The translations under genes and the position numbers were made by a program. Of a stretch of DNA of 33,973 bases, positions 157-28,531 are shown in pieces (within the stretch, counting starts at the first letter, position 1; every line of letters starts with the position of its first letter). The notes under the pieces were generated by a model. That model was given only the letters and a program-made list of their open reading frames with translations, searched no databases and was not told the origin of the DNA. This stretch comes from Synechococcales cyanobacterium C42_A2020_086 (GTDB lineage Bacteria; Cyanobacteriota; Cyanobacteriia; Elainellales; Elainellaceae): the NCBI GenBank assembly GCA_015272325.1, contig JACYLU010000027.1, positions 1 to 33,973 of the forward strand. Direction: 5' to 3'.

Positions 157-465
157 GCCTCATCCACGAATACTGATGGTAGCACACTTGGTCCCGAAAT
201 AGGTGCAGTTGGTCCATCTAGTTTTTCTATGGGTTCTTCAGCATTGCATTAGAAAAGGTAGCCGCGGCTGGCGCGTGTAGCCGTTTCTCTGCTACCGATA
301 GTGCTTGCCCCTACCGGTGCTGTCAGCAGCATGCTTTGAAGCCAAAGCTGAACGAGATTAGCTGATTTTTCTCCTGTTGTCGTGTACCAAAAGGTAGAGA
401 ATGTTCATCATGTCCAATTTGGGGAGATCGTTCGCGCTATGCTGTTGCGTTAATGTGTTGCGTTA
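157..465. other. intergenic region between tRNA-Tyr and the TPR gene
   Basis: About 309 bases with no convincing reading frame or RNA gene. It should hold the promoter for the tRNA pair (minus strand) and the promoter of the TPR gene (plus strand), but I see no strong -35/-10 pair. Its 3' end contains the first copy and most of the second copy of a 13-bp tandem duplication that runs into the TPR start codon. Confidence 0.6.
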
Positions 466-468
466 ATG
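443..468 (+). repeat. 13-bp exact tandem duplication ending at a start codon
   Basis: TGTTGCGTTAATG occurs twice without a gap (443-455 and 456-468). The second copy ends in the ATG of the TPR gene at 466-468. The first copy carries an ATG at 453 that is out of frame with it. One of a set of similar duplications of unrelated sequence in this window. Confidence 0.97.
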
Positions 469-1578
469 AAAACCCCTATTCATCCTTGGTTTCAGTCAAA
501 GCTTATGCATCTGTTGAATCATGTCAACTCCGCTGACTCCCCTCAGCCCTCCATTCAGTACCCCATTCAGTCCGCCATTCAAGAATGGGAGGACCGACGG
601 AGCCAAGCCAGCCGTCACTATCGTAATGGTGAGTTTCAGACCTATTTAGTGCTCGCCAAGCAAAACCTCAAGTTGGCTCGACAGCTCCAGGACCGGGTAC
701 GAGAAGGCTATGCTCTCAATGACGTTGGCTTGGCCTATAAAACCTGCCATTGCCCGCAGTCAGCAGTTCAGTGCTTTTTGCAGGCGCTAGCCATCGCTGA
801 AGAGATAGACAATCCGATGGCCGTCGCAACGGCGCTAACAAACCTAGGGGCAACCTACAGTCAGCTTGGGCAGCTCACTTCAGCATTACATGCCTTTGAA
901 CGGGCCCTACCGCTCTGGCAGCAGCAGCACGATGTTGCCGCCGAAATCTCCACCCTCAACAACATGGCGCTAGCCTACACCAAGCTAGAACAACCGAAGC
1001 GGGCGCTGCTGATTCACCACCAGCTGCTGGCAATGCGGCGGCTCTTGGGAGACTTTTCGGGAGAAGCGATTACGCTCAACGGCATTGGTTTTGCCTATCA
1101 GGCGTTGGGCGAGCTAGAGCAGTCATTAGGCTATTTCCATGAGGCCTTAGCGATCCACCATGCCACTCGCAACTTAACGGGTGCAGCAACGACATTGAAC
1201 AACATTGCTACGGTCTATACCGATCTGGGCCAGCCGAAACAGGCTCTACTGATCCAGCATCAAATCCTGCTCACCTGCAAAGCCATGAATGATCGGTCTG
1301 GCATTGCTCTGGCGCTACACAATATGGGCTTTACTTATGCCGAGCTAGCCGACTACCCTCAGGCGCTCACCTGCTACGACCAGGCGCTGACCTTGTATCG
1401 CGACTTGAACGACCGCCCCGGTGAAATTCGCATCTTGATGAATCTGGGCAGCGTTTATGCCACCCTAGGGCAGAAGGAACCTGCTCGTTCGCATTACCTC
1501 AGCGCTCAGGCTCTGGTGCAGCAGCTCGAAGACCAGCCGTTGATGCGGCGGGTGCAGCGGTTGATTGCAGCGCTCTAG
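466..1578 (+). CDS. tetratricopeptide-repeat protein
   Basis: A 370-residue soluble protein made almost entirely of tetratricopeptide repeats of the TPR_12 kind, spaced about 40 residues apart from about residue 85 to 350. Recurring signatures are ALNDVGLAY, ALTNLGATYSQLGQ, TLNNMALAYTKLEQ, TLNNIATVYTDLGQ and ALHNMGFTYAELADYPQAL. TPR arrays are protein-binding scaffolds; no catalytic domain, signal peptide or membrane segment is visible, so the partner is unknown. Near the N-terminus a 12-bp unit (551-582) is present three times and encodes the motif PIQ/AIQ. No Shine-Dalgarno sequence precedes the ATG, and an out-of-frame ATG lies 13 bases upstream in the duplicated copy. It converges on the helicase gene 41 bases downstream. 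Confidence 0.9.
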   Translation: MKTPIHPWFQSKLMHLLNHVNSADSPQPSIQYPIQSAIQEWEDRRSQASRHYRNGEFQTYLVLAKQNLKLARQLQDRVREGYALNDVGLAYKTCHCPQSAVQCFLQALAIAEEIDNPMAVATALTNLGATYSQLGQLTSALHAFERALPLWQQQHDVAAEISTLNNMALAYTKLEQPKRALLIHHQLLAMRRLLGDFSGEAITLNGIGFAYQALGELEQSLGYFHEALAIHHATRNLTGAATTLNNIATVYTDLGQPKQALLIQHQILLTCKAMNDRSGIALALHNMGFTYAELADYPQALTCYDQALTLYRDLNDRPGEIRILMNLGSVYATLGQKEPARSHYLSAQALVQQLEDQPLMRRVQRLIAAL

Positions 1579-1619
1579 GGACTAAGACAGGAAAACTCAG
1601 CTCGACCCACCTCCCCAAT

Positions 1620-3569
1620 TCAGGACAATTGTCGCAGTCCGGCGGTTTGTAGAGCGGCCGCGGTGAGATCCATCTGCGTTTCGGGTGGCAGAAAGACGAT
1701 AAAACCATCGCGGCCGCGGGTCAGCAGAACCCGGTAGCTGTTTATACGCAGCCGCAGCGGATCACGAACCTGCCGTTGCCGCACCGAGCTGAGCCACCGA
1801 CCGGGCTGAAGATTTGCGGAGGAGTCTGGGTGCCACAGCAAATCATTGCCCCAGCCCAGCAGGGGAAAGTCGAGTTCTAGCCCTTGGCAGCCAAATTCGG
1901 TCACGGCGCGGTCGAGGGCACAGCAGGACTGCGGCGAGTCGGGCGGGTCGATGTACCACGCCCCCATGTTGAGTCGTGAGGTGGCGTAGTAGTCGTTGGG
2001 GATGCCGTAGGCGGCTAGATTGCGGGCACGCGAGGAGGCGAGCAGACCATAGCGTTTGCTGGGCTGACCCTGGTAGCGCTCGCGGCAGTAGGTTTTAGCT
2101 AGCTCCAGATCGCGGGTGAGGTAGGCGTCGAACCCTTCGGCTAGAAGCAGCGGCATGAGCTGCGCGGCTTGTTCGAGCTGGCCCTGCAGCAAAGCGGCCA
2201 CCCAAGTCTGCACATGCTTTGCCAGATGGGTGCGCAAGGAAGTCGTCAGGTTAAACCGATCGTGGGCATGGCGCTGTTGAGGTGGAATGGCCGTGAAGCA
2301 GTTTGCCTGCTCGGGGGGGCAATGCACTTGCCACGGTTCTTGAGCGGCTGCCAGTCCATGATTCCACTGCTCGATGCCTTCCTCTTCGCCGACGTGGATT
2401 TCTTGCCCCTCGCCGATTAGCCCCAGCACAACGCACCAGTTCGGCACCCGCTCGGCAATCCGCAGCACTGCTCCGCCGGCCGCACTGCCAATGCCATACT
2501 TTTCTGCCATGCGCTCGGCATCCCAGGCTCGCTGCGCCTCATCAAAAACAATCAAGTGCTCGGCGGGGGCACTTTGACGGCGCACTTCATGCTGGAGATA
2601 GAAATTGCGCACGGCCTGCACAAACACGCGGCTCTTGAGGGCATATTGCAGCACCGCAATCAAAGGACCATTGCCCGACAAGAAGACGGCCTGACGCTCG
2701 TTTTGATTGTCCTGAGTAGACAGCGGATTCTGGTAGACCCACTGCAGCCCCACCAGGGTTTTGCCAGCTCCCGGAACGCCAGTAATCAGCACCAGATGGC
2801 GTTCTTGCCGCTTCTGAGCTTGCAGCACCAGCGCATTCAAATAGTCGAGCAGCTCGGGAATACCGGCACTCGAGGCTCGCTTGAGGGCGGGCAGCGGTTC
2901 CTGCTGAAAGAGGCGTCGGGCGGCTTGCACCAGCGTTGGCAGCGGCGCGTAGTCTGCCGTCACCCAGGTGTGCGGATCGAGGGGCGGCGGAGCGTGATCG
3001 GTGACCTGATTCAAATAAGGCGCTACCTCCTGCGGGCTAAGCACCTGCACGGCAGAACGCATTTCTCCTGGCTGCGAGCGGCGAGTGGGTACCAGAATCG
3101 GCGTGACAGAACGATGCCAGCAGCCCGGATGGTAGGCAGCCAGATCGCGGGCATAGGCCGCCACCTGATCGAGATCCGCCGTGGAGGGAGACACCTTTTG
3201 CTTGAACTCGAACACTAGAATCTGCGTGGCTGTTAGCAGCACCAGATCGGGACGGCGGCCGCCCTCACGGGGCAGCTCATACTCAAAGATCAGCGTCCAA
3301 TTTGCGCTCTCGGGTCGGGTTGCTACTAGGTGCGCCAACTGCTGCTGCAAAATCTGCCCGCTATCTTGCCAGGCGTGTTGCTGGGTGGAGGTAGCCCGCT
3401 GCCGGTAGAGCTGCTGATAGTTTTGCTGCACCGTTGCAAGCCAGTCGGATAAGGGCGTATCTAGAAAACAAGCGATGGTTCCCAACCAGCCATAGGTAAT
3501 GACCGGCTCCTCGGTAGCAACTGCTGCGACGGGTACTGGGAATAGCGGTAGCTGATGGGGCGATTCCAT
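1620..3569 (-). CDS. PD-(D/E)XK nuclease-SF1 helicase fusion (DUF2075 / Schlafen group 3-like)
   Basis: A 649-residue protein. The C-terminal two thirds is a superfamily 1 helicase of the DUF2075 type: Walker A GVPGAGKT (264-271), Walker B LIVFDEAQ (339-346), a motif V-like segment around FGCQGLELD (559-567), and YRVLLTRGRDG (612-622), which resembles motif VI. The N-terminal part has the layout of a PD-(D/E)XK nuclease: an acidic strand IFEYELP (94-100), RRPD ending at D108, and EFK (E121, K123) in a hydrophobic strand, followed by a helix. That arrangement predicts a metal-dependent DNA cut linked to ATP-driven translocation. Known relatives are poorly characterised; roles in DNA repair or in phage defence are both possible. 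It stands alone between the convergent TPR gene and the divergent glycosylase gene, with no methyltransferase or obvious partner beside it. Confidence 0.85.
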   Translation of the reverse strand: MESPHQLPLFPVPVAAVATEEPVITYGWLGTIACFLDTPLSDWLATVQQNYQQLYRQRATSTQQHAWQDSGQILQQQLAHLVATRPESANWTLIFEYELPREGGRRPDLVLLTATQILVFEFKQKVSPSTADLDQVAAYARDLAAYHPGCWHRSVTPILVPTRRSQPGEMRSAVQVLSPQEVAPYLNQVTDHAPPPLDPHTWVTADYAPLPTLVQAARRLFQQEPLPALKRASSAGIPELLDYLNALVLQAQKRQERHLVLITGVPGAGKTLVGLQWVYQNPLSTQDNQNERQAVFLSGNGPLIAVLQYALKSRVFVQAVRNFYLQHEVRRQSAPAEHLIVFDEAQRAWDAERMAEKYGIGSAAGGAVLRIAERVPNWCVVLGLIGEGQEIHVGEEEGIEQWNHGLAAAQEPWQVHCPPEQANCFTAIPPQQRHAHDRFNLTTSLRTHLAKHVQTWVAALLQGQLEQAAQLMPLLLAEGFDAYLTRDLELAKTYCRERYQGQPSKRYGLLASSRARNLAAYGIPNDYYATSRLNMGAWYIDPPDSPQSCCALDRAVTEFGCQGLELDFPLLGWGNDLLWHPDSSANLQPGRWLSSVRQRQVRDPLRLRINSYRVLLTRGRDGFIVFLPPETQMDLTAAALQTAGLRQLS

Positions 3570-3687
3570 GCGGTATTGATTCTATTTCGGACTTCCTGGT
3601 TCTGCCTGATTCTGCCTTCCTGATTCTAAAGTGCGCCACACTAGAGAACAGCCCGCCGTTAGGAAGAACAGGTGAGGAAGAAACAGA

Positions 3688-4341
3688 ATGATTGGTGCTT
3701 GCTCCTCTGCCGGAACTCTCGATTACACTGCTGCCATTGCGGCTCTCAAGCAAGCCGATCCGATTTTGGCCGCGACTATTGAGCGCGTCGGAACTTGCAC
3801 CCTGAGCCAGCAGCAGCAAACCGGCGATCTGCTGTTTGCCCTGTCGGAGGCAATCTTGTATCAGCAGCTCTCGGGCAAAGCCGCCGCCGCCATCCATCGC
3901 CGCTTTTTACAGCTTTATCCCAATGCAGACTTTCCGACCGCTCGCGATATTTTGAATACGCCCGATGAGGCTCTGCGCAGTGCTGGCATTTCCCGACCCA
4001 AAATCACCTATCTCAAGGATCTGGCGCAAACAGTGCTCGATGGGCTGCCCAGCCTAGAGGCTCTGCAAACGCTGGATGACGAAACCATTATTCAAACCCT
4101 GACGCCGATCAAAGGCATCGGTCGCTGGACGGTGCAAATGCTGCTGATCTTCCGCCTACACCGCTGGGACGTGCTGCCCGTGGATGATTTGGGGATTCGC
4201 GCTGCTGTCCGCTCCCTCTACAACCTGCCCGACCTACCCAACAAAGCCACCCTGGAGCGCATTGGGCAGCCCTGGCGACCCTACCGCACGGTTGCCTCCT
4301 GGTATCTCTGGCGCAGCCTGGAGCAGAAGCCGCAGAGATAG
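3688..4341 (+). CDS. DNA-3-methyladenine glycosylase, AlkA/Mag1-like (HhH-GPD)
   Basis: A 217-residue base-excision-repair enzyme expected to remove alkylated purines such as 3-methyladenine. The helix-hairpin-helix is KGIGRWTVQM (142-151). It is followed by VLPVDDLGIR, where the D166/D167 pair holds the catalytic aspartate and R171 the expected arginine. EAILYQQLSGKAA (55-67) is the conserved helix preceding the core. There is no iron-sulphur cysteine cluster, which argues against Nth or MutY. The length fits the short Mag1 class that lacks AlkA's N-terminal extension. A GAGGAAG sequence lies upstream of the ATG. The stop codon sits inside a 12-bp tandem duplication. Confidence 0.9.
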   Translation: MIGACSSAGTLDYTAAIAALKQADPILAATIERVGTCTLSQQQQTGDLLFALSEAILYQQLSGKAAAAIHRRFLQLYPNADFPTARDILNTPDEALRSAGISRPKITYLKDLAQTVLDGLPSLEALQTLDDETIIQTLTPIKGIGRWTVQMLLIFRLHRWDVLPVDDLGIRAAVRSLYNLPDLPNKATLERIGQPWRPYRTVASWYLWRSLEQKPQR

Positions 4342-4361
4342 CTACATCCATAGCTACATCC
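4338..4361 (+). repeat. 12-bp exact tandem duplication across the glycosylase stop codon
   Basis: ATAGCTACATCC is present twice without a gap (4338-4349 and 4350-4361). The first copy contains the TAG stop of the glycosylase gene (4339-4341), so the duplication begins at the gene end. Confidence 0.97.
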
Positions 4362-4362
4362 T

Positions 4363-4609
4363 ATGAAGACCGACTCCTCTGTCCCGGCAGAGGGCAGTAT
4401 TTGACCACGAGCGATATCGAGTCGTTGAGTTCCGCAATTGGGAAAGTCAAACCCAGTTTCGCTCAGCAACCGATGTCAAATTTCGCAACCTCAGAAGGCT
4501 GATCCGGCTACCGTACCTAAGTCAGCGAGACTGTAGTGCTCGGGCTTATCTACAGCGAATTCATAGTTGGCTTAAAAATCTCCACAACCATTGGCCGTGG
4601 ATGACATGA
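4363..4609 (+). pseudogene. small frameshifted reading frame, unknown product
   Basis: A reading frame open from 4367 to the TGA at 4607-4609 encodes about 80 residues of protein-like sequence (for example RYRVVEFRNWESQTQFRSA and LIRLPYLSQRD, then AYLQRIHSWLKNLHNHWPW) but has no ATG, GTG or TTG near its start. An ATG at 4363 opens the neighbouring frame (MKTDSSVPAE) and stops early. Removing one G from the GGG at about 4391-4393 joins the two into a continuous product of about 82 residues. I infer a one-base frameshift, either a real mutation or a sequencing error. I do not recognise the family. No ribosome binding site is evident. Confidence 0.4.
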
Positions 4610-4621
4610 CCGTGGATGACA
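4595..4621 (+). repeat. 12-bp direct repeat with 15-bp period
   Basis: CCGTGGATGACA occurs at 4595-4606 and 4610-4621 separated by TGA. The TGA is the stop of the small frameshifted reading frame. A near-tandem member of the short-duplication set. Confidence 0.9.
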
Positions 4622-4631
4622 GGTTTTCTAT

Positions 4632-4647: not shown

Positions 4648-4650
4648 GAG

Positions 4651-4977
<327 letters not shown>

Positions 4978-5253: not shown

Positions 5254-5275
5254 TTAACAGCAGATTAACAGCAGA
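5254..5275 (+). repeat. 11-bp exact tandem duplication
   Basis: TTAACAGCAGA is present twice without a gap (5254-5264 and 5265-5275) in the sbtB-sbtA intergenic region. Confidence 0.97.
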
Positions 5276-5715: not shown

Positions 5716-6840
5716 GTGGATTTCTTGTCCTATTTTTTCATGGACTTTCTGTCGCAGTTGCAGTCCCCGACACTCGGCTTTCTGATTGGTGGTATGGTCA
5801 TTGCTGCCCTCGGTAGCCAACTGCAAATTCCAGATGCAATTTATAAGTTCATCGTCTTCATGCTGCTTCTCAGAGTTGGCTTGAGCGGCGGCATTGCGAT
5901 TCGTAATGGCAACTTGGCAGAGATGCTGTTGCCCGCGCTATTCGCCGTAGTCATGGGAATCCTTATTGTGTTCATTGGGCGCTACACATTGGCTAAGCTG
6001 CCGGGCGTGAAAACTGTGGATGCCCTTGCAACGGCAGGTTTGTTCGGTGCCGTGAGTGGCTCTACCCTCGCTGCCGGACTGACTGCACTGGAAGCGCAAG
6101 GCATCGAGTATGAACCCTGGGCTGCCGCACTCTACCCCTTCATGGACATCCCAGCGCTCGTAACTGCGATCGTCGTGGCCAACATTTACATCAGCAAGCG
6201 GGAGTATCTCAGCAAGCAGCGCATTACCGCAGACGAGTATCTCAGTACCGCAGACGAGTATCCCAGTACCGCAGGCGAGTATCCCAGCAAGCAGCGCATT
6301 ACCGCAGTCGGGTATCCCAGTACTACCGCAGGCAAGCGGGTCAGGATATGGCCCATCGTGAAGGAAAGCCTTCAAGGCTCTGCCCTATCGGCACTGCTGC
6401 TCGGAGTTGCTCTAGGACTGCTAACCCGACCAGAAAGTGTTTATGAAAGCTTCTATGACCCCCTCTTCCGCGGACTGCTTTCGGTTCTGATGCTGGTTAT
6501 GGGAATGGAGGCCTGGTCAAGGCTTAGCGAACTGCGCAAGGTAGCCCAGTGGTACGTCGTATATTCCGTGGTGGCACCACTGCTGCATGGGTTCATCGCC
6601 TTTGGTCTCGGCATGATTGCCCACTACACTACGGGATTTAGCTTTGGTGGTGTCGTGCTCCTAGCCGTTATCGCCTGCTCCAGTTCAGACATTTCAGGAC
6701 CGCCCACATTACGCGCCGGTATCCCGTCGGCCAATCCCTCGGCCTACATAGGCTCGTCCACGGCCATCGGTACGCCGATTGCGATTGGCTTAGGAATACC
6801 GCTCTACATCGGGCTTGCCCAGGCACTGATGGGCAACTGA
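5716..6840 (+). CDS. sbtA: SbtA, sodium-dependent bicarbonate transporter
   Basis: A 374-residue inner-membrane protein that imports bicarbonate with sodium as part of the CO2-concentrating mechanism. Segments characteristic of SbtA are LQSPTLGFLIGGMVIAALGS, FGAVSGSTLAAGLTALEA, LYPFMDIPALVTAIVVANIY, GMEAWSRLSELRKVAQWYVV and SSSDISGPPTLRAGIPSANP. The length equals the Synechocystis protein. I use the GTG at 5716 because AGGAGG lies 5 bases upstream and the encoded N-terminus MDFLSYFFMDFLSQLQ aligns with the family. An in-frame ATG at 5740 is the alternative. The cytosolic loop between the two halves (residues about 163-206) consists of repeats unlike the usual loop. The stop is followed by 355 noncoding bases. 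Confidence 0.97.
   Translation: MDFLSYFFMDFLSQLQSPTLGFLIGGMVIAALGSQLQIPDAIYKFIVFMLLLRVGLSGGIAIRNGNLAEMLLPALFAVVMGILIVFIGRYTLAKLPGVKTVDALATAGLFGAVSGSTLAAGLTALEAQGIEYEPWAAALYPFMDIPALVTAIVVANIYISKREYLSKQRITADEYLSTADEYPSTAGEYPSKQRITAVGYPSTTAGKRVRIWPIVKESLQGSALSALLLGVALGLLTRPESVYESFYDPLFRGLLSVLMLVMGMEAWSRLSELRKVAQWYVVYSVVAPLLHGFIAFGLGMIAHYTTGFSFGGVVLLAVIACSSSDISGPPTLRAGIPSANPSAYIGSSTAIGTPIAIGLGIPLYIGLAQALMGN
6202..6333 (+). repeat. in-frame minisatellite within the SbtA cytosolic loop
   Basis: Five units in the order A (6202-6234, 33 nt), B (6235-6255, 21 nt), B' (6256-6276, 21 nt), A' (6277-6309, 33 nt) and C (6310-6333, 24 nt). They encode EYLSKQRITAD, EYLSTAD, EYPSTAG, EYPSKQRITAV and GYPSTTAG. 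All units are multiples of three, so copy changes keep the frame. The core GGCGAGTATCCCAGC resembles the minus strand of the noncoding repeat at 32278-32331 (GGCGATTATCCTAGC). Confidence 0.95.
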
Positions 6841-7195
6841 TTTCAGATGGGTCGCGGTCTGCCGGTGCTCCCCAGCCCGGCAACCAACGCGGCAACTCTG
6901 TCAAGGTTTGCGTCTTCCAGACAAGTTTTAATGAACCAACCCTTGAAAACGACCCCTGGTGGACCAGGATTCAAGAACCAGGCGCTTGGATGAAACGAGT
7001 TATCGCATTGATGGGGTGAATCAAACTCTTATCCAACTCTTATCCAACTTTTATGTAAACTGACTTAACCTTCTCGAGTTTGCTGATATAGCTCATTTGA
7101 GGATCTTAGCCAGACATCACACTGCTCTAATCATCTCTACGGGCATCTTAAAGCTGTGCTTAAAATTGTGATTGTCGGTCAACGAGAACTATATC
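6841..7195. other. intergenic region between sbtA and the ABC-F gene
   Basis: About 355 bases between convergent genes. I see no gene, RNA or clear terminator. It holds an 11-bp tandem duplication at 7024-7045 with a degenerate third copy. Confidence 0.6.
7024..7045 (+). repeat. 11-bp exact tandem duplication with a degenerate third copy
   Basis: AACTCTTATCC occurs at 7024-7034 and 7035-7045 and is followed by AACTTTTATG at 7046-7055, which looks like a decayed third copy. Confidence 0.97.
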
Positions 7196-9145: not shown

Positions 9146-9681
9146 CGCTGGCTGTTTGGTTCATCCTCTAGCACCTTAGCATTTACGCTTGCCTCAGTGG
9201 GGAACGGCCCGACCATGAACCGATCGAGGATTATAAGTAATGATGGCTAGTGCAATAGAGCCGTGATGTCTCATGAGATAAGTATTTATACTTGCACTTA
9301 TAGCTGGGCAACACACACGATGTTTAGTAACGAATGTGACGAAATATGCGACAAAGGTGTGGATTCTCAGCCAAGAGCTTAAGAACTTGTTAAAAGAGAA
9401 AGGTTTAGGAATTTCTACCGCTAAGGTTGAATGCAAGATACCTCCTAACTGCGTCTCCAGCCTCATCGGTTAAACCTTGCGTCTAACGGTGAGGCTGCTC
9501 TTTATGGAATCGGTATGAAATCGGTATGAAATCGGTATGGCATCGTTGCAGACTCTCTGCTCGCTCTGCTGCCCAACGATACCCTCTATTCCTAAGTCTC
9601 TTAAGTCAAGCAGAGTAATGCTTAGAGTAGAGTTGTTCTTTGTCGTTCTATGAGCTGAACCATCGCAGGGAGCAGAATCGA
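9146..9681. other. intergenic region upstream of the secreted solenoid protein gene
   Basis: About 536 bases between divergent genes, so both promoters lie here. A minus-strand frame at 9194-9466 lacks any recognisable feature and is not called. A small inverted repeat AAGTAT-TT-ATACTT lies near 9279-9292. An 11-bp triple repeat is at 9509-9541. Confidence 0.55.
9509..9541 (+). repeat. 11-bp tandem repeat, three copies
   Basis: ATCGGTATGAA at 9509-9519 and 9520-9530, then ATCGGTATGGC at 9531-9541 with two changes at its end. The longest of the short intergenic tandem duplications. Confidence 0.97.
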
Positions 9682-13371: not shown

Positions 13372-13434
13372 AGGTGCTAAAGCTTTATCACTATAACAGA
13401 TCTTTGGAACCTTGCCTGCCACCTCCGGCAATCA

Positions 13435-16952: not shown

Positions 16953-17294
16953 ATGCGACTTGTCTGGGTACCGATCCTCACTTTAACTGTCGGCTGGGCA
17001 AACCCGTGGTCAATAACGCGAGGCATTGAGGAACCGGCACAGATGGTTGAGGTCGTCCTCAGCCAAACTCCCGTTGGCACCCCGGTCGATGATGCTCAGC
17101 AGTTCATGGAGCGGGAGGGATTCAGCTGCTCTCGCAGTACCAACCAGCCCTTCGGAGACCGGGAGAATCCAAACTACATCTACTGTGACCGCTCTGAGGG
17201 CTTCCTAGTCCTGCGGCGGTGGCAAGTCGCAATCGTTCATCAGGACGGTAGAGTGGTGGAAGTACTAGCCAGCACTGGGCTAGTTGGACTGTAA
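16953..17294 (+). CDS. small exported protein, unknown function
   Basis: A 113-residue protein beginning with a short hydrophobic stretch (MRLVWVPILTLTVGWA) that looks like a signal peptide. The rest carries two cysteines (C59, C78) that could form a disulphide, and the segments VGTPVDDAQQFMEREGFSCS, YIYCDRS and RRWQVAIVHQDGRV. This pattern (a PVGTP..DA..FM...GF.C opening, then a strand-rich end) recurs in short uncharacterised periplasmic proteins. AGGGA lies about 11 bases upstream of the ATG. It may be cotranscribed with the DHH gene. Its TAA is inside a 13-bp tandem duplication. Confidence 0.7.
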   Translation: MRLVWVPILTLTVGWANPWSITRGIEEPAQMVEVVLSQTPVGTPVDDAQQFMEREGFSCSRSTNQPFGDRENPNYIYCDRSEGFLVLRRWQVAIVHQDGRVVEVLASTGLVGL

Positions 17295-17314
17295 CACCAA
17301 GCTGTAACACCAAG
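17289..17314 (+). repeat. 13-bp exact tandem duplication across a stop codon
   Basis: CTGTAACACCAAG occurs at 17289-17301 and 17302-17314. The first copy contains the last codon (CTG) and TAA stop of the small exported protein, so the duplication copies the gene end. Confidence 0.97.
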
Positions 17315-20010: not shown

Positions 20011-22521
20011 TTAGGTCAGGATCGTGCCACCCAGCAGTCGCTGATAGCGGTACTCTAATTCAGCTTTGATCAATGACCAGCGCTCTAGCTGTGGATCCAG
20101 CTCGATGATTTTTTGGGCTGCCTCGCGGGCTAGCTCCAGTACTGCCTGATCTTCAACGAGACTGGCTAGGGCGAAGTCCGGTAGCCCCGATTGGCGGGTG
20201 CCCAGCACTTCTCCGGGACCCCGAAAGCGCAGATCCATTTCTGAGATAAAGAACCCGTCCTGCGATTGTTCTAGCACCTTCAGCCGCTGGCGCGCCGTTT
20301 CACTTTTAGAGCTGTTCATCAGCAAACAAAACGATTGAGCCGCCCCCCGCCCAACCCGGCCGCGCAACTGGTGGAGCTGCGAGAGTCCAAACCGTTCGGC
20401 ATGTTCGATCAGCATCACGGTGGCATTGGGCACATCAACCCCCACTTCAACAACGGTGGTGGAAACGAGGATCTGCGTCTGGTTGTTGCGGAACCGGGTA
20501 ATGGCGTCTTCCTTTTCGGCAGAACTCATGCGCCCGTGCAGCAAGCCCACCCGGAAGTCGGGAAATACGGCATCCTGTAAGTGCTGGTATTCATCAATGG
20601 CGGATTTTAGGTCTAGCTTTTCCGACTCTTCGACCAGCGGCAGCACCACGTACACCTGCCTGCCCTGAGCCACTTCCCGCCGGATCAGGTCATAGGCGTG
20701 CTGGCGATCTCGTCCGCTGAGCAACGTGGTTTGAATTGCCTGCCGTCCGGGAGGCAGCTCGTCGATCTGGCTGACATCGAGGTCGCCGTGTAGGGTTAGC
20801 GCCAGGGTTCTAGGAATCGGGGTAGCAGTCATCGTCAGCACATGGGGAAAGCTGCCTTTCTGCTGCAAGCGGGCCCGCTGCTGCACCCCAAAGCGATGCT
20901 GCTCGTCGATCACCACTAGCCCTAGTCGCTGAAACTCCACCGGGTCTTCGATTAAGGCGTGGGTGCCTACTAGCAGGGGCAGTTCTCCGGTGGCAAGCTG
21001 CGCCAGAATCTCTCGTCGTTTGGCGGCTTTCGTGGATCCGGTCAGCAGTTCTACCGGCAGATGCAGCAGGTTAAACCAGCTCACCAGCTTGTGGTAGTGC
21101 TGCTCGGCCAGCACCTCGGTGGGAGCCATCAACGCCGCCTGATAGCCTGCCTGGATCGCCGCCAAAATTGCCACCACTGCCACCACGGTTTTGCCCGACC
21201 CAACATCGCCTTGCACCAGTCGATTCATGGGCACCGGCTTCTGTAAATCGGTGAGGATGTCATTGACAACCCGCTGCTGCGCCGAGGTGAACTGAAACGG
21301 TAGCACCTCATAGAACTGCTGAATCAAGGCTCCGGTAGGGGCGAGGGTAGCACTGGTCTGCTGTTGCTTCTGGGCTAAGCGTCGCTTGAGCAGCCCGAGC
21401 TGCAAGTAGAAAAACTCATCGAACACCAGGCGATGGCGGGCGGCCGCGAGGGCATCAGCATCGGGGGGAAAGTGGATATCGGCCACTGCCTGCGCCAGAG
21501 GAGCCAATTCGTACGTTTGCCGCAGTCCCTCAGGCAGGGGGTCTACAAGCTGCTGAACGGCGGGCAGAGCGGCCACCACGGCTTTGCGCACCAGATCCGC
21601 CCCCACACCGTCTGTGAGGGGATAGATCGGCACGACCCGCCCCACTTTCAGAGAATCGATCGAGGCGTTGGAGTGGTCCAGCACTTCAATCTGGGGATCT
21701 TCGAGGGTGGTGCCGTACTTATCTTTCTTGACTAAGCCAGAGGCAGCAATCACTGCTCCCACCGGGTAGAGCTTTTTCTGCTGCTCCTGCCAACCGCGAT
21801 TCCGATAGCGAGTGCCAGCATAGAAGCGGCTTAGCTTGAGTTGCCCGCTGTGATCCTGCACCAGCAGCTCAAAAATAGTCAGCTTGGCATTCTTGGGGCT
21901 ATTGAAACAGGTGCATCGCTTGACGGTGGCAATTAGCGTCACGGTTTCGCCGGGCACCAGCTCCCGGATATTCACCTGCCGCGCATAGTCGATGTGGTCA
22001 CGGGGATAGTAGTAGAGCACATCGCGCACGGTAGATAGCCCCAGCTTGGCCAGCCGCTCAGCACTTTTGGGTCCAATGCTCGGCAGGTAGGTAATGGCTT
22101 GATCGAGCGTTACCTTGACCGCCGGACGCTCGGGAGCAAGGGCAACGGTGCGGGGGCGTTTAGTGCGACGCGGCGGAGCGGATGCTGGAGCAGAGGTTGC
22201 GCTAGACGAGCTGCCGCTGTCGGACACGGCAATGGGCGATGGTTCTGGTGATGGTTCTAACCGCTGGCGGGCTTGATGCAGCAGGCGGCGTGTCTCGGCA
22301 ACTAGATGCTGCCGCTGGGCAAAGCTGAGTTCCGGATATTTGGCATATTCACCGGCAATTTGCTGCAACCGCAGACGGTCGGCTCGTGGCAGTTCCACCG
22401 GCGGCTGGTTGAGGCTAAAGCTCAGAAACTCACTGAAGCGATACTGAGTTCCCAGCAGGTCATTGAAGCCTCGCTCGGCTTCTACAGAAAGGGCTTTTTG
22501 CAGGCGTAACCAGTCCAGCAT
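20011..22521 (-). CDS. recG: ATP-dependent DNA helicase RecG
   Basis: An 836-residue branch-migration helicase that remodels stalled replication forks and Holliday junctions. Order of parts: an N-terminal helical extension typical of cyanobacterial RecG, a Ser/Pro-rich linker (about 88-125), the wedge/OB domain (about 140-290), then the helicase core with GDVGSGKT (438-445), APTEVLAEQH, DEQH box in VVIDEQHRFG (539-542 for DEQH), TATPIPRTLALTLHGDL and the QLRGRVGRG motif VI. The length exceeds that of E. coli RecG (693) because of the N-terminal extension and linker. A 12-bp direct repeat (22238-22258) in the linker encodes EPSPEPSP. It is divergent from bvdR with 168 bases between. Confidence 0.96.
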   Translation of the reverse strand: MLDWLRLQKALSVEAERGFNDLLGTQYRFSEFLSFSLNQPPVELPRADRLRLQQIAGEYAKYPELSFAQRQHLVAETRRLLHQARQRLEPSPEPSPIAVSDSGSSSSATSAPASAPPRRTKRPRTVALAPERPAVKVTLDQAITYLPSIGPKSAERLAKLGLSTVRDVLYYYPRDHIDYARQVNIRELVPGETVTLIATVKRCTCFNSPKNAKLTIFELLVQDHSGQLKLSRFYAGTRYRNRGWQEQQKKLYPVGAVIAASGLVKKDKYGTTLEDPQIEVLDHSNASIDSLKVGRVVPIYPLTDGVGADLVRKAVVAALPAVQQLVDPLPEGLRQTYELAPLAQAVADIHFPPDADALAAARHRLVFDEFFYLQLGLLKRRLAQKQQQTSATLAPTGALIQQFYEVLPFQFTSAQQRVVNDILTDLQKPVPMNRLVQGDVGSGKTVVAVVAILAAIQAGYQAALMAPTEVLAEQHYHKLVSWFNLLHLPVELLTGSTKAAKRREILAQLATGELPLLVGTHALIEDPVEFQRLGLVVIDEQHRFGVQQRARLQQKGSFPHVLTMTATPIPRTLALTLHGDLDVSQIDELPPGRQAIQTTLLSGRDRQHAYDLIRREVAQGRQVYVVLPLVEESEKLDLKSAIDEYQHLQDAVFPDFRVGLLHGRMSSAEKEDAITRFRNNQTQILVSTTVVEVGVDVPNATVMLIEHAERFGLSQLHQLRGRVGRGAAQSFCLLMNSSKSETARQRLKVLEQSQDGFFISEMDLRFRGPGEVLGTRQSGLPDFALASLVEDQAVLELAREAAQKIIELDPQLERWSLIKAELEYRYQRLLGGTILT
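22238..22258 (-). repeat. 12-bp-period duplication in the recG linker
   Basis: GATGGTTCTGGT at 22238-22249 is followed by GATGGTTCT at 22250-22258. On the coding strand it yields EPSPEPSP in the flexible linker, where copy changes would be tolerated. Confidence 0.85.
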
Positions 22522-23710: not shown

Positions 23711-25369
23711 TCACCGGCTTGGCAGCTGGATTTGCCACAGCCAGTTGTTAAAACCCTCGGCGAGGGGTTTGATGTCGTAGGTTTGCTGCTGGTTGAGCTG
23801 GGTCAGCCAAGCCTCGGAAGGGCGGGGGTTGAACAGAAACACCGTCTCTGCACCATTGGGCAGAGGAGGCAGATAGGGCTGGTCAAGCCATTCGCGATGG
23901 GCATCACAGGCGTAGCATTGCGGTCGCACTAACAGCAGCACGTCGGGATTGAGGTAGTGGGTCAGGGCAAACAAATCGCCAACTTCGGCATCACTAATGA
24001 CGAGCGGACCCGGACTCTGATTAATCTGCGCGGTCAGGGCGGGCACGGTGCGGTTATGAACTTTGTGCCACCAGCTGGGTGATGTGGCAATGGCAGCCGA
24101 AGAACCGATGCCCACTAGCACAATCACTAGGGCAACACCCTGCCAGAGGTACCGCTGCCAGCGTTTAACCGTGGAACTATCCCAGAGCTGCTGCGACAGC
24201 AGGTAGGTGAGTGCCAGTTCAAAGCCAATGTAAACGGGCACAAGATAGCGGGGAATCGTTGAGCGTTTACCGCCATAGATCAAATCCGGCAGGGTGAGGG
24301 CAATCGCCGGCACCGCAATTAGCGTCATGACAAACCACCAAACCCGCAGCGGCGTACGGCGACAGAGCAGATATAGCCCATAGAGGACGCCTACCCGAAC
24401 AAGGAGATTGGCAGCACTAACCATGGCCCGCAGGGGCAAGGGCAGCACCAACTCACCGCGATCGACAAAGGGCAAGCTCAGATGGTACGCCCACAATTTT
24501 CCGAAACTGCGAAGCGTGAAGCGATTTTCCACCGCTAACCAGTTGGTGACGGTATCCACCTGCGACTGATTCTGGGCAATGGCCATAAGCCAGGGTGCGA
24601 AAGCCAGCGTCGCCAAACCCAGGGCCGCCAGGATAAACCGCAGATTGCGCCGCAGCCGAAACCGCTCTACACCTGCCACATAGAGTAAATGCGCCTGCGC
24701 TACCAAGATCGAAAACAAATAGGTGTAGAAATTCACAGTACTGGCCAGGGCGTAAGCTGTCCAGTGAACGGCCGCCTTCGACCGCATGGCTCGCAGCAGG
24801 GCAACGCTAGTCAGCAGAGTAGTCAGCGTCCAGAGGGCTGTGGGACGGGCTTCTTGAGCATAGGCGACCTGAAAGGGGGAAACTGCCAGTAGCAGCATTC
24901 CTATTGAAGCGGCAGCAGGCGATGCAAACAGCTCCCAGCAGAGCCAGCCCATTAGGGGAATAGCCAACACGCTGGCAACGATAGACAGGCTGCGCAAACT
25001 GGTGATTGAGTCTCCAAACCAATCTGCCCAGAGTCGCGCCAGTACAAAATACAGCGGCGTATGCTGCGGCTCTTCGGCGGCTAAGCCCTGCACAGTGTTG
25101 AACAGGGTTTTATGGGAGTTAAGCTGTTGGTAGCGTTGAAAGACTGCCGCCCTTACGGGTTCATCGGTAGACACGGCCTGTACCACCTCTGCTTCGGTGT
25201 AGCCCGAGACGCGCAGCGCTGTGAAGGCTTCGTCGTACCAGAACACTTTGTCACTGAGGTTAATGATTCGTAGCCCGATGCCGATGATAAGACAAAGCAG
25301 TACGCACCATCGCCAAAGCCGGGGGAGAGAGTACCAGTTCTGGGGAATTCTGGGTTTGCTGTTGCTCAT
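23711..25369 (-). CDS. membrane glycosyltransferase, GT39/PMT_2 (ArnT-like) family
   Basis: A 552-residue polytopic GT-C enzyme. It begins with a transmembrane helix (about 19-37) followed by a periplasmic loop carrying WYDEAF (D46-E47), the catalytic acidic pair of this superfamily. QHTPLYFVLARLWADWF (102-118) is the second conserved loop, and about 8-10 further hydrophobic helices follow. A soluble C-terminal part (about 430-552) faces the periplasm. Such enzymes transfer a sugar from a polyprenyl-phosphate carrier to a lipid, glycan or protein outside the membrane. It is divergent from a gene for a GT2-GtrA fusion, which would supply such a lipid-linked sugar. The acceptor is unknown. Confidence 0.85.
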   Translation of the reverse strand: MSNSKPRIPQNWYSLPRLWRWCVLLCLIIGIGLRIINLSDKVFWYDEAFTALRVSGYTEAEVVQAVSTDEPVRAAVFQRYQQLNSHKTLFNTVQGLAAEEPQHTPLYFVLARLWADWFGDSITSLRSLSIVASVLAIPLMGWLCWELFASPAAASIGMLLLAVSPFQVAYAQEARPTALWTLTTLLTSVALLRAMRSKAAVHWTAYALASTVNFYTYLFSILVAQAHLLYVAGVERFRLRRNLRFILAALGLATLAFAPWLMAIAQNQSQVDTVTNWLAVENRFTLRSFGKLWAYHLSLPFVDRGELVLPLPLRAMVSAANLLVRVGVLYGLYLLCRRTPLRVWWFVMTLIAVPAIALTLPDLIYGGKRSTIPRYLVPVYIGFELALTYLLSQQLWDSSTVKRWQRYLWQGVALVIVLVGIGSSAAIATSPSWWHKVHNRTVPALTAQINQSPGPLVISDAEVGDLFALTHYLNPDVLLLVRPQCYACDAHREWLDQPYLPPLPNGAETVFLFNPRPSEAWLTQLNQQQTYDIKPLAEGFNNWLWQIQLPSR

Positions 25370-25676
25370 CGGGATGCTGGTCAGAAGCTCGCGACGTCAC
25401 CCCCACTATGGTCTGGACAATGGTAGCTCGTCAATGCCGCATGAAAGCCGCGACGCAGTGCAAATGTCGTCCGCAGGTCCTTTGCTGCACCAATTGTGAG
25501 GTGCAAGACCCCACAATCAGGTAGGATGAAGCATTGCCGAAATTGCTGAATCGGATGATCTGCGGCTAGGGAACCTGTGCTCTGTTTTTTGATCCGTCTA
25601 TTGGATAAATCGATTGAATTAATCCGTTTTGCGAGCCAGCGTTTGGTGAATTGGTGTTTGGTGTAAGTGAGCTGCT
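25370..25676. other. divergent promoter region between the two glycosyltransferase genes
   Basis: About 307 bases that must contain both promoters. It holds one good inverted repeat (25493-25517). No gene recognised. Imperfect repeats of GTTTGGTG (25641-25648 and 25656-25663) lie just before the plus-strand start. Confidence 0.5.
25493..25517. promoter_or_regulatory. inverted repeat, candidate operator
   Basis: ATTGTGAGG (25493-25501), 7-base spacer, CCCCACAAT (25509-25517); 8 of 9 positions are complementary. It lies between divergent glycosyltransferase genes, where an operator for a dimeric regulator would be expected. No T run follows, so it is less likely to be a terminator. Confidence 0.4.
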
Positions 25677-26930
25677 ATGACGATTGCCCACCCGTCCCGA
25701 TCCCTAGCCGTGCCAACGGGCGCATTGCGTATTCCCAAGGTGCCGCTGCAACGCGACCCGCAGGATCTGCCGTTGACACCGGTGATCCTGTCGCTGGTGA
25801 TTCCCACGTTTAATGAAGCTCAGAATATTCCCAAAATGGTGCGGCAGCTTACGGATCTGCTCGATCAAGCGCTGGGAGAGCAATACGAACTCATCATTGT
25901 CGATGACAACAGCCCAGACCACACCTGGGAGGTGGCGCTGGCCTTCACGGTAGATTATCCTCAGCTCTGGGTAATGCACCGCCAGCAGGAGCGGGGGCTA
26001 TCCACGGCAGTCATCCGCGGTTGGCAGGCAGCCCGTGGCGAGATCCTGGGCGTGATGGATGGCGATTTGCAGCATCCGCCGGAGGTGCTGTTGCAGCTCG
26101 TGCAGGCAATTCAGCAGGGGGCGGATCTAGCGGTCGCCAGTCGCCATGTGGCAGGAGGCGGCGTCAGCGAGTGGAGTCCGGTGCGGCGTTTTTTGTCGCG
26201 GGGGGCGCAGGTTTTGGGGCTGCTGATCTTGCCCAGCGTGGTGGGGCGCGTATCGGACCCGATGAGCGGCTATTTCATGGTGCGGCGCAGCGCCATTGCC
26301 GAACAAACGCTGAATCCCCTGGGCTACAAAATTTTGCTAGAGGTGCTAGGGCGTGGCAGCATTGCTCAAGTGGCAGAAGTGGGCTATGTGTTTCAAGAGC
26401 GCAAAGAAGGCGAAAGCAAAGTTACCTGGCGGCAGTATGTAGACTACATTTTGCATTTGCTGCGGCTGCGATCGCGGGGGCGGGTGGCGCACTGGCGACA
26501 AAAATATCAGCTCCCGATGCAGCGGTTTATTCGCTTTGGCATTGTCGGCCTGAGTGGCGTGTTTGTGGACATGGCGATGCTCTACGTGCTCAGCGACCCG
26601 GCAATGCTGGGCTGGGGGCTGACGCGCAGCAAGATCATTGCCTCAGAATTAGCGATTATCAACAACTTCCTCTGGAACGACCGCTGGACTTTTGGCGATA
26701 TTGCTAATCAACAGAAGGGCTGGCAAAAACGGCTAAAGCGACTGCTGAAGTTTAACCTGATTTGCTTAGGCGGGCTAGTGCTAAACGTGCTGCTGCTGAA
26801 TTTGCTGTTCAACATCTTCGGGTTCAATCGCTACCTCGCGAATTTGATTGCCATCGCCGCCGTTACGCTATGGAATTTTTGGCTCAACCTGAAGCTAAGC
26901 TGGCGCGTTACCGATACCGGCAAACGCTAG
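25677..26930 (+). CDS. polyprenyl/dolichyl-phosphate sugar synthase fused to a GtrA domain
   Basis: A 417-residue fusion. Residues about 37-265 are a GT2 domain of the Dpm1/GtrB type: SLVIPTFNEAQNI, DDNSPD (76-81), DGDLQHPPE (128-136, metal-binding DGD) and DPMSGYFMVRR (194-204). Residues about 281-410 are a GtrA-like membrane domain with four helices and the segment FIRFGIVGLSGVFVDMAMLY plus ASELAIINNFLWNDRWTF. The GT2 part links a sugar to polyprenyl phosphate on the cytosolic face and GtrA is thought to help move it across the membrane. Divergent GT39 would be a natural user. The ATG at 25677 has only a weak AGTGAG upstream. Both halves look complete. Confidence 0.92.
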   Translation: MTIAHPSRSLAVPTGALRIPKVPLQRDPQDLPLTPVILSLVIPTFNEAQNIPKMVRQLTDLLDQALGEQYELIIVDDNSPDHTWEVALAFTVDYPQLWVMHRQQERGLSTAVIRGWQAARGEILGVMDGDLQHPPEVLLQLVQAIQQGADLAVASRHVAGGGVSEWSPVRRFLSRGAQVLGLLILPSVVGRVSDPMSGYFMVRRSAIAEQTLNPLGYKILLEVLGRGSIAQVAEVGYVFQERKEGESKVTWRQYVDYILHLLRLRSRGRVAHWRQKYQLPMQRFIRFGIVGLSGVFVDMAMLYVLSDPAMLGWGLTRSKIIASELAIINNFLWNDRWTFGDIANQQKGWQKRLKRLLKFNLICLGGLVLNVLLLNLLFNIFGFNRYLANLIAIAAVTLWNFWLNLKLSWRVTDTGKR

Positions 26931-27136
26931 CGATTGCCAAAGCCGTTAAAGTAGCTGCACCGGCTCCATCAGTCAGTTCAGTCACTATTGGGATGATCTT
27001 TGTTAATAGACAATACCAGGAAGTTAAAGCCAGCCCAACATTTCCAGATATTCTTTTCAGATATTCCTAAGGAGCGGCTGTATCAATTGATCGGTGAATG
27101 CACTGAGCGGGAAGAAACCCAAGCTAGACGCAATTT

Positions 27137-27168
27137 AAGAATGCGACTAAGAAAGAATGCGACTAAGA
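27137..27168 (+). repeat. 16-bp exact tandem duplication
   Basis: AAGAATGCGACTAAGA at 27137-27152 and again at 27153-27168, without a gap. The longest exact unit among the short tandem duplications seen here. Confidence 0.97.
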
Positions 27169-27273
27169 AAATAGACAGGAAAAGCAGCAATAATAGCTTG
27201 TTGAGTCTATGCTAATCTCTACTGCACCTATCCTTGAACCGATAAAGTGGCGTTCAGGGAACAAAACTCCTGA

Positions 27274-27302
27274 TTGACAGCACAATTTTATTGTTCTACC
27301 TC
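27274..27302 (+). promoter_or_regulatory. candidate promoter of the carotenoid protein gene
   Basis: A perfect -35 box TTGACA (27274-27279), a 17-base spacer and a poor -10 box TACCTC (27297-27302). The perfect -35 with a weak -10 would suit an inducible promoter. The transcript would start about 90 bases upstream of the coding start. Confidence 0.35.
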
Positions 27303-27338
27303 TGTCTACAGTTAGGTCACCATCTTCTGTCTTTAGTG

Positions 27339-27379
27339 GGTTGGGTAACTTTACCCGACCTTGATACCGTACGAACGGT
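27339..27379 (+). promoter_or_regulatory. two adjacent inverted repeats upstream of the carotenoid protein gene
   Basis: GGTTGGGTAA (27339-27348) pairs with TTACCCGACC (27351-27360) across a 2-base gap, with one T-G wobble. ACCGT (27366-27370) and ACGGT (27375-27379) form a second inverted repeat. They lie between the candidate promoter and the start codon, so they may be operators or a leader structure. Confidence 0.4.
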
Positions 27380-27397
27380 GAATTATGGCAGACCGCA

Positions 27398-27898
27398 ATG
27401 ACCTACACAACGTCGAACTCGTCGAGCGAACTAGTATCTGCATTTCAGAGCTTAGAGGTAGATCAGCAGCTCGCGCTGTTTTATTTTATTTACAAAGAGA
27501 TGGGAAACTCTGTAACGCCGGCTGCCCCCGGAGCGAGCACGGTATCGCCTGAAATCGCCGAATCGCTGTTTAATCAGGTGAAGGAGATGTCGCACGAGGA
27601 GCAGTTGCAGTTGCAGCGCGATTTGATTGTCGGCAAAAATACCCTGATTGCTCGGGAATATGGAGCACTTAGCGACACCACTAAACTGCTGTTTTGGTAC
27701 TATCTCGCTCAAGGAATGGATAACGGGACTGTGGTTCCCATGCCGCCGAACTACGAGCTAACTTCGGAAGCACAGCAGCTCTTTGAGCGAATCAAAGAAC
27801 TCGACTTTGGCGAGCAAATTACCCTCTTCCGCAACATTGTTTCGCCGATGGGTGTTGATCCTACCGCTGGAAATCAGGATAGTGAAACTGGGCTGTAG
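27398..27898 (+). CDS. helical carotenoid protein (HCP), OCP N-terminal-domain homologue
   Basis: A 166-residue all-helical protein homologous to the N-terminal carotenoid-binding half of the orange carotenoid protein, without the C-terminal NTF2-like sensor half. Proteins of this class bind a keto-carotenoid and quench singlet oxygen or phycobilisome excitation. LVSAFQSLEVDQQLALFYF aligns with the OCP start, Y32 with OCP Y44 and W100 in LLFWYYLAQGM with OCP W110. Y29 stands where OCP has W41. FGEQITLFRNIVSPMG matches the final helix motif. No OCP, CTD homologue or FRP gene lies in the window. There is no clear Shine-Dalgarno before the ATG at 27398; an out-of-frame ATG at 27384 opens an overlapping frame. 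Confidence 0.9.
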   Translation: MTYTTSNSSSELVSAFQSLEVDQQLALFYFIYKEMGNSVTPAAPGASTVSPEIAESLFNQVKEMSHEEQLQLQRDLIVGKNTLIAREYGALSDTTKLLFWYYLAQGMDNGTVVPMPPNYELTSEAQQLFERIKELDFGEQITLFRNIVSPMGVDPTAGNQDSETGL

Positions 27899-27972
27899 CA
27901 GGCACTCTGCCAAGAACTGCTAAGACCAACTACAAAAACCGTCAACAAAACAACAAGAACAGACTACAGGCA

Positions 27973-28010
27973 GCGGCTTCTGAAGGATTGACATGGTCAT
28001 CGGAAGCCGC
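27973..28010. terminator. hairpin between convergent genes, possible terminator
   Basis: GCGGCTTCTGA (27973-27983) pairs with TCGGAAGCCGC (28000-28010) over 11 bp with one G-U pair; the loop is 16 bases. It lies between the carotenoid protein gene and the convergent thioredoxin gene. There is no T run on either side, so it may act as an RNA end-protecting hairpin rather than an intrinsic terminator. Confidence 0.4.
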
Positions 28011-28071
28011 ATTGTCGTAGTGTGTCGTACTGCTGCTTACGCTGCTCCGAAATAGGAGAGCAGAGTGACGC

Positions 28072-28386
28072 TCAGTTTGCTTGCCCGACCACCGCTTGCA
28101 GTTTCTCGCGAAATTCGCCTTTGGGATGAGCACCTTTGACCTCACCTAAAATTTTGAATTCGCCTTCGGGGCTATCACAGACGATGTAGGTCGGCCAGCC
28201 CATTTCCGCTTTGTCCGGGTATTGGGTCAGCAGAATCTTGCGATACTTACGATAGGTGGCGGTGTCCTGCATTTTCACGTCTACGAAGTCTAGTCCTAGC
28301 TCTTGCGCTACTTTCTGGTCATAGAAGGACATCTTGTGGCATAGTCCACAATCTTCCGACGAAAATTTGATTACTGCCAGGCTCAT
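28072..28386 (-). CDS. thioredoxin-like protein (CGLC active site)
   Basis: A 104-residue cytosolic protein with a thioredoxin fold. The redox motif is EDCGLCHKM (CGLC at 13-16) after the first strand LAVIKFSS, and the cis-proline is P65 in GWPTYIV. The family's usual WCGPC is replaced by DCGLC, so the redox potential and partners should differ from ordinary thioredoxin; CGLC occurs in a group of small cyanobacterial thioredoxin-like proteins. There is no signal peptide. It is convergent with the carotenoid protein gene, and no other redox partner gene is adjacent. Confidence 0.88.
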   Translation of the reverse strand: MSLAVIKFSSEDCGLCHKMSFYDQKVAQELGLDFVDVKMQDTATYRKYRKILLTQYPDKAEMGWPTYIVCDSPEGEFKILGEVKGAHPKGEFREKLQAVVGQAN

Positions 28387-28503
28387 AGCTGATTAACTCC
28401 GCGACTAGCTACGTGACCCTCTTCGCACCGCTATGGGTAGAGAAGGGATATTCCTCTAATGAGGGTGACAAGAAATATCTGGTGCGACAAGGGATTTTAG
28501 CAA

Positions 28504-28531
28504 TTCGCTACATAGATTTCGCTACATAGAT
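28504..28531 (+). repeat. 14-bp exact tandem duplication
   Basis: TTCGCTACATAGAT at 28504-28517 and 28518-28531, without a gap, in the 276-base gap between the thioredoxin-like gene and pgk. Nothing else was recognised in that gap apart from the hairpin at 28595. Confidence 0.97.

Follow-up and report, generated by a model that had tools for sequence, protein, structure and literature searches.

Short exact tandem duplications in a cyanobacterial genome and a candidate origin in type IA topoisomerase cleavage

Short exact tandem duplications of unrelated sequence are scattered through the intergenic DNA of Synechococcales cyanobacterium C42_A2020_086, and their origin is the subject of this study. 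The window, that is, the whole stretch of DNA that was analysed, is one entire contig of 33,973 bases (JACYLU010000027.1) from a draft genome of 5.93 Mb in 38 contigs (G000). Genes were called from codon usage with a custom caller, by which 8.3 kb of the window is noncoding. The phosphoglycerate kinase encoded in it has its top-ranked match in Elainella saxicola, at 89%. For counts beyond the window, a sample of 1.17 Mb was used, made up of the window and 59 further stretches of the same genome and containing 272 kb of noncoding DNA.

Each of the eight exact tandem pairs listed in the original prediction is present, with the single correction that the array of nearly three copies starts at 9508 and not at 9509. 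The leftmost pair, of 13 bp (TGTTGCGTTAATG, 443..468), overlaps a possible start codon of a gene for a TPR protein (Pfam). A 12-bp pair at 4338..4361, placed on the minus strand, overlaps the stop codon of a gene of the HhH-GPD DNA-glycosylase type, and an 11-bp pair at 5254..5275, on the plus strand, lies between sbtB-like (P-II) and sbtA-like genes. Two further 11-bp units have ambiguous edges: a pair followed by 4 bp of a third copy (7024..7049) and the array of nearly three copies (9508..9539). Additionally, a 13-bp pair is found at the stop codon of a 113-aa open reading frame (17289..17314), a 16-bp pair with 2 bp more upstream of an orange-carotenoid-protein N-domain gene (27137..27170), and a 14-bp pair on the minus strand between a 104-aa open reading frame and the phosphoglycerate kinase gene (28504..28531). 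The near-exact pairs reported along with these also exist, as a 15-bp pair matching at 14 of 15 positions (4592..4621), which is either an older event or a chance near-match, a 13-bp pair matching at 12 of 13 (27041..27066), and a pair matching at 9 of 10 that starts at 13433. Not on that earlier list is a 9-bp exact pair inside recG (21169-21186), which encodes VVAVVA; it was rejected as a recent duplication and is not counted as one, because relatives have the same VVA repeat or a variant close to it. The sbtA-like bicarbonate transporter gene contains a 21-bp unit repeated three times (6225-6287, 95%), in a loop that differs in length and sequence among five aligned relatives. These linker repeats were set aside as evidence of duplication, the loop being variable.

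Across the sample, 188 exact pairs with periods of 10-20 bp were counted in the 272 kb of noncoding DNA, a density of 0.69 per kb. In 370 kb of the genome, pairs of period 11-16 numbered 44 in 90 kb of noncoding DNA and 5 in 281 kb of coding DNA, whereas 20 dinucleotide shuffles of the same 370 kb gave means of 0.0 and 0.05, respectively. The anticipated excess over chance is thus borne out, as the shuffles gave counts near zero and no control approached the observed number. A separate shuffled control, on a noncoding subset of 188.5 kb, resolved the excess by period. Observed and shuffled counts were 185 and 154 for period 5, 64 and 36 for period 6, 22 and 9 for period 7, 23 and 2 for period 8, 26 and 1.2 for period 9, and 23 and 0.1 for period 10. 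From period 11 to period 17, the observed counts were 30, 25, 14, 12, 7, 5 and 3, each against zero in the shuffles, and a single pair was found at each of periods 18, 19 and 22. The excess therefore starts near 5-7 bp, is broad over 8-13 bp and fades by 17-22 bp; noncoding pairs of period 23-60 are absent from the full 1.17 Mb, in which each period from 8 to 16 occurs 7 to 52 times in noncoding DNA. Duplication size is thus spread over a broad class, dwindling near 17-20 bp, with no fixed step. The range of 11-16 bp first proposed was a small-sample view, and a polymerase with a fixed step, also proposed, is unsupported because the size range is broad. Footprints of transposon target-site duplication were rejected as a cause, periods 8 to 16 all being represented. 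Heptamer repeats of the STRR type were likewise rejected, since neither period 7 with its multiples nor a common unit sequence characterizes the pairs.

The pairs are a recurring kind of event and not a dispersed repeat family, as had been suggested, for the units differ and a BLAST search with the events as queries returned just two spanning matches in the 1.17 Mb sample, both belonging to one 66-bp local repeat. As a separate observation, the noncoding DNA of this genome holds many direct repeats of at least 10 bp at distances of 67-84, in the manner of arrays of clustered regularly interspaced short palindromic repeats. In coding DNA, 48 of the 54 pairs with periods of at least 9 bp are multiples of three (29 of period 9, 12 of period 12, 6 of period 15 and 1 of period 21), and frame-breaking periods are few (two of 10, one of 11, two of 13 and one of 16). 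A few of the coding 9-bp pairs are expected to be chance or old protein repeats, as in recG. This respect for the reading frame marks the pairs as real mutations pruned by selection. The tandem pairs are real, recurring mutational events, in excess throughout the sampled genome.

Relatives were sampled mostly at a small scale of 40 kb each, and their noncoding densities for periods 10-20 vary: 1.74 per kb in G004, 0.69 in G008, 0.59 in G023, 0.51 in G029, 0.32 in G005 and 0.27 in G002, with zero pairs in 12.4, 6.2 and 11.4 kb of noncoding DNA from G003, G019 and G021, respectively. G008, a complete genome in a single contig, has the same density as the genome under study. Two non-cyanobacteria were compared. 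Escherichia coli K-12 has no pair of period 8 or more in 38.2 kb of noncoding DNA, where about 26 would be expected at the period 10-20 density of G000, and Shinella has one pair, of period 8, in 11.9 kb.

The original prediction had looked to relatives for single-copy ancestors of the duplications. Such a state was found outside the window: among six pairs examined between G023 and its congener G005, one lies in a well-aligned spacer, that between petB and petD upstream of petD, where G023 has an 11-bp pair and G005 a single copy with closely matching flanks. The spacers differ in length by 12 bases, which are the duplication and one T. The same pair was not visible by eye in 21 further genomes, most of which do not align there. 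None of 223 BLAST matches from relatives covers any of the window's own eight pairs, and paralogues within the sample gave nothing useful for polarising events. A scan for clean gaps between related loci yielded 118 gaps, 15 of them tandem duplications, and 9 of these 15 had lengths in multiples of seven. The decay of the pairs speaks to their age. After subtraction of shuffles, pairs of period 12-13 number about 39 exact, 41 with one mismatch and 45 with two, as would be expected if pairs arise at a steady rate, decay through point mutations and are seldom lost. At periods 14-18 mismatched pairs are fewer, with 27 exact pairs against 15 with one mismatch. Assuming a steady state and no loss, the rate is estimated at about one duplication, of any cause and of period 8-22, per 50 intergenic substitutions. 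The process is best explained as a continuing one, seen in this genome and, at varying strength, across its family.

The junctions of the duplications were compared with a simulation of blunt duplications placed at random, which by chance extend to either side. Overlaps of 0, 1, 2 and 3 bp were observed in 77, 36, 11 and 5 of 144 two-copy arrays, against 79.4, 39.4, 15.8 and 5.5 in the simulation. Overlaps of at least 4 bp occurred in 15 arrays where 3.9 were expected, and this minority may have another origin, in homology or in a partial third copy.

The breakpoints carry a base signature. Events with ambiguous edges, those near the ends of stretches and those with close to three full copies were excluded, and the 379 noncoding events kept yielded 193 unambiguous ones, 138 from G000 and 55 from 15 relatives. 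The unambiguous edges of G000 show C at position -4 together with G at +4, which is the same C read on the opposite strand, and they are rich in A/T inside the unit (+2, +3, +5 and +7). The C/G pattern was first seen in an initial set of events and again in the enlarged set. Over the 193 events, C at -4 has a frequency of 35-43% per edge and strand, compared with 25-26% at nearby control positions. Both edges tend to carry it on the same strand: in G000 a same-strand double C stands at offset 4 in 52 of 138 events, whereas offsets 2, 3, 5, 6, 7 and 8 give 13, 4, 14, 16, 4 and 13 (Fisher test, odds ratio (OR) 2.49, p=0.0005), and in relatives of the family it stands there in 17 of 45 events against 4-7 at other offsets. 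C is the only base that peaks at offset 4 as a same-strand double in the 193 events. Where the edges share no other nearby base, the double C is present in 18 of 101 events at offset 4 and in 4/98, 5/106 and 1/143 at offsets 5, 6 and 7; because the peak stays under this restriction, decayed third copies do not produce it. Ambiguous events with 1-2 bp extra show a weaker peak: of 124 such events, 47 count at offset 4 and 26-37 at each remaining offset of the range 3-8. In the window, the same-strand rule is obeyed by three of the five unambiguous pairs, those at 4338 (minus strand), 5254 (plus strand) and 28504 (minus strand). The pair at 17289 has the C at one edge only and that at 443 has none at either edge on either strand; the 16-bp pair at 27137 has no same-strand double C, and that at 7024 has C at -4 of both edges on the plus strand in one of its five possible alignments.

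Models of the cut with equal numbers of parameters were compared by likelihood on 183 events, from which the two class outgroups G028 and G029 had been left out. The negative log-likelihood was 475.1 for cuts on the same strand, 485.6 for independent sites, 490.0 for a single site, 491.0 for opposite strands in either polarity, 492.0 for a palindrome at one edge, 498.2 for a 5' overhang and 501.7 for a 3' overhang. An opposite-strand component added to the same-strand model receives zero weight. The same-strand fit places a fraction of 0.46 of the events under the rule, with C at 81%. Moreover, C at -4 is raised in coding events (0.388, n=29, in G000; 0.380, n=25, in relatives), and in mismatched pairs, namely those of G000 with one mismatch (0.332, n=58) and with two (0.348, n=28) and those of relatives with two (0.330, n=28). 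The GC content of the units is 38%, compared with 47.5% for noncoding DNA, and once the edges are oriented by their C, positions -5 and -3 are preferentially A/T and position +1 of the left cut preferentially T, a pattern that loosely resembles the E. coli topoisomerase I motif. Both the rule for the cut and its same-strand geometry come directly from the analysis.

A known enzyme has a similar rule. In excerpts of PMC9352719, E. coli topoisomerase I is described as binding single-stranded AT-rich DNA and cleaving it 4 nt downstream of a strictly required C, with the 5' end covalently held and the 3' end free; the authors expect the C requirement throughout the type IA family and report that cleavage is raised upstream of active transcription units. 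A self-poisoned TopA mutant is also described in PMC9352719, and topoisomerase I has been overexpressed in Synechocystis PCC 6803 (PMC9825172). The genome studied here has two matches to type IA topoisomerases, in open frames of 919 and 742 aa, and enzymes of this type are present in 40 of 40 genomes and in 14 of 14 controls, E. coli included. A duplication could arise if a type IA topoisomerase, TopA or a paralogue, cut melted AT-rich DNA on one strand, 4 nt to the 3' side of a C, while the 5' end stayed on the tyrosine of the enzyme. The free 3'-OH would escape and be extended by a polymerase through the unit, displacing the enzyme-bound strand, until the enzyme resealed the 5' end onto the new 3' end at a place where a C again stood at -4. 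Resealing would leave two copies of the unit on one strand, as a loop of 8-16 nt. Loops of this size should be too large for MutS, and the next replication would fix the loop as an exact tandem duplication. Three features follow from such a mechanism, namely C on the same strand at the two edges, junctions free of microhomology and a maximum size. All three are observed, the C rule in about half of the events. If the resealing instead went crosswise between two sister strands, the signature would be identical, but no limit at 16-20 bp would be expected. On balance, we give even chances to the reading that the pairs are footprints of blunt, single duplications of about 8-16 bp made by a type IA topoisomerase; in this reading we infer which enzyme acts, that the 3' end is extended and that the loop escapes mismatch repair.

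Several results weigh against a type IA origin. The copy number of type IA enzymes does not track duplication density, and an extra topoisomerase copy was rejected as the cause on this ground. Because the enzymes are universal, and E. coli has one without any noncoding pair in 38 kb, the rate must be governed by another factor. There is no bias between coding and template strands in G000 (23 against 24); the template strand carries 9 of 10 events in three relatives, too few to judge. Divergent spacers are not favoured in G000, with 0.87 pairs per kb against 0.96 in codirectional and 0.73 in convergent spacers. Density does not follow transcription-driven supercoiling. About half of the events are without the C at -4 signature; pairs of periods 5 and 6 do not show it, and C is not raised in one-mismatch pairs of relatives (0.257, n=38). 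The same-strand double is found in none of the 10 events of the two outgroups of the same class, and for relatives by themselves the Fisher test of same-strand association does not reach significance (OR 1.97, p=0.11, n=55). At 54 events of other loci, comprising 45 from a broad set of genome contigs, with periods in multiples of 7 excluded, and 9 from short loci of relatives and others, C at -4 has a frequency of 0.208 against a local background of 0.220, and doubles number 7 at offset 4 against 6-11 elsewhere. Same-strand association of the edges also appears, among many tests, for A at -4 (OR 2.6, p=0.009) and T at +4 (2.8, 0.0055) and more weakly at offset 5, for C at -5 (2.8, 0.034) and G at +5 (3.8, 0.0037). 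Finally, the overlap distribution as a whole departs from the blunt expectation (chi-squared 33.6, p about 1e-6), essentially through the class of at least 4 bp. With these points taken together with the evidence above, the wider proposition that type IA topoisomerases make a mutation class of their own, exact 8-16 bp duplications that are a major insertion process in some cyanobacteria, is put forward tentatively, as somewhat less than an even prospect.

Among other causes, two staggered nicks on opposite strands could leave overhangs of 8-16 nt that are filled in and joined by blunt ligation, as in the patch or paired-nick model of rice and mammals. Exactness, lack of microhomology and the size limit would all be accounted for in this way, and duplications by overhang fill-in are known in eukaryotes (PMC8355091, in the portions available). 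The C signature is nevertheless same-strand, and opposite-strand models are worse by at least 15.8 log units; furthermore, the mammalian duplications fall strongly without Ku80, according to the same portions of PMC8355091, and no Ku gene was found in G000. The Ku search gave no match in 39 of the 40 genomes, with a positive control in Bacillus subtilis. The sole Ku-positive genome, G015, has four matches on its contigs C61 and C66, in two oppositely oriented pairs. We consider staggered nicks unlikely, although they are the alternative to which we give most room. Unlikely to virtually the same degree, and ranked just behind, is a different single-strand nicking enzyme with the same C at -4, such as a nickase or an HUH or transposase-like protein. 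The statistics define a cut rule and not a protein, and a density that varies among relatives while type IA enzymes are everywhere is as expected of an accessory gene. Transposon target duplications have a fixed length, unlike the broad lengths here, and the rule described for type IA enzymes in the excerpts of PMC9352719 is that of one C, four nucleotides upstream, in AT-rich surroundings.

Slippage during replication, or misalignment at microhomology between short direct repeats, would explain the surplus of long overlaps (15 of 144 arrays), and it is also favoured by the weak extra sharing between edges at -4 and -5 and by third copies, as at 9508, which slippage can add to an existing pair. 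Such a process would not be expected to leave C at -4, and because overlaps of 0-3 bp equal those of a random blunt duplication, it is not the main cause; the slippage or microhomology-mediated repair of the original prediction is therefore given up in that role, and we rate it as distinctly unlikely. Functional elements under selection, either direct-repeat operators or phase-variation switches, would suit the mostly intergenic position of the pairs. The units differ, however, the exact, one-mismatch and two-mismatch classes are about equal as in neutral decay, and frame-breaking lengths are rare in genes, so that this explanation is very improbable. An artefact of assembly or sequencing might be suspected in a draft genome, but sequencing errors would ignore the reading frame that pairs in genes respect, and the single-contig G008 is equally dense; of all the explanations it is the most improbable. 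Some causes were discarded outright. Loss of mismatch repair was rejected, since matches to the MutS family occur in 40 of 40 genomes, with two in G000. The patch of nucleotide excision repair is 12-13 nt long, and this process was dropped by reasoning, because one lesion cannot place C at -4 of both edges over lengths of 8 to 16.

Two other regions of the window deserve mention. A Schlafen group 3 helicase-domain gene (1620-3569) adjoins the DNA-glycosylase-type gene, and this neighbourhood is possibly a defence locus, which is a guess. Near the right end, the region of a DUF29 gene (32841-33648) is 88% identical to a stretch in G033, a genome of another family. As this identity far exceeds the usual 70-80% of gene matches, the shared stretch is, judged from sequence, probably mobile DNA shared recently.

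Small tandem duplications are a common type of insertion, and in bacteria they are usually ascribed to slippage at repeats. A description of a duplication process by type IA enzymes was not found by searches on these enzymes and on short duplications in the open-licence literature of PubMed Central, of which the longer result lists were covered in part. The duplications described here preserve in intergenic sequence the trace of a process whose breakpoints follow a rule, and this allows a candidate enzyme to be named and tested. If the type IA origin is true, these enzymes join the topoisomerases known to mutate genomes, insertions that need neither repeats nor end joining are explained, and the history of topoisomerase cleavage becomes readable from sequence alone. 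A further question is raised by the absence of such pairs from 38 kb of noncoding DNA in E. coli, which has an enzyme of this kind too.

Several known systems bear comparison. The STRR of cyanobacteria are families of 7-bp repeats with recurrent sequence; they resemble the present pairs as tandem repeats in cyanobacterial intergenic DNA, but the pattern in G000 is not one of multiples of seven. Broad cyanobacterial loci (L054, L038, L073 and others) do show tandem periods of 14, 21 and 28, with indels of such lengths separating close relatives, and these we take to be STRR heptamer-like. Small tandem duplications of rice have reportedly been attributed to patch-mediated breaks. Those of mammals are assigned to overhang fill-in by Pol alpha-primase/CST in the available portions of PMC8355091. 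Both share with the present events the exact, short duplication of non-repeat sequence, whereas they need two-strand breaks and mostly non-homologous end joining, and the strand pattern in G000 does not fit. In excerpts of PMC11477040, topoisomerase II is linked to de novo duplications in yeast and human cancer, mainly of 2-4 bp, through double-strand cleavage and non-homologous end joining. There, as proposed here, short exact tandem duplications arise through a topoisomerase where no repeats existed before; the events in G000 differ in their length of 8-16 bp, in their same-strand cut rule and in that no Ku was found. Topoisomerase I of type IB produces deletions of 2-5 bp at tandem repeats (same excerpts of PMC11477040), which are errors of single-strand cutting and religation by a topoisomerase, as is proposed here. 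The events in G000 are duplications instead, and this opposite outcome would fit an enzyme linked to the 5' end, with a 3' end that can be extended.

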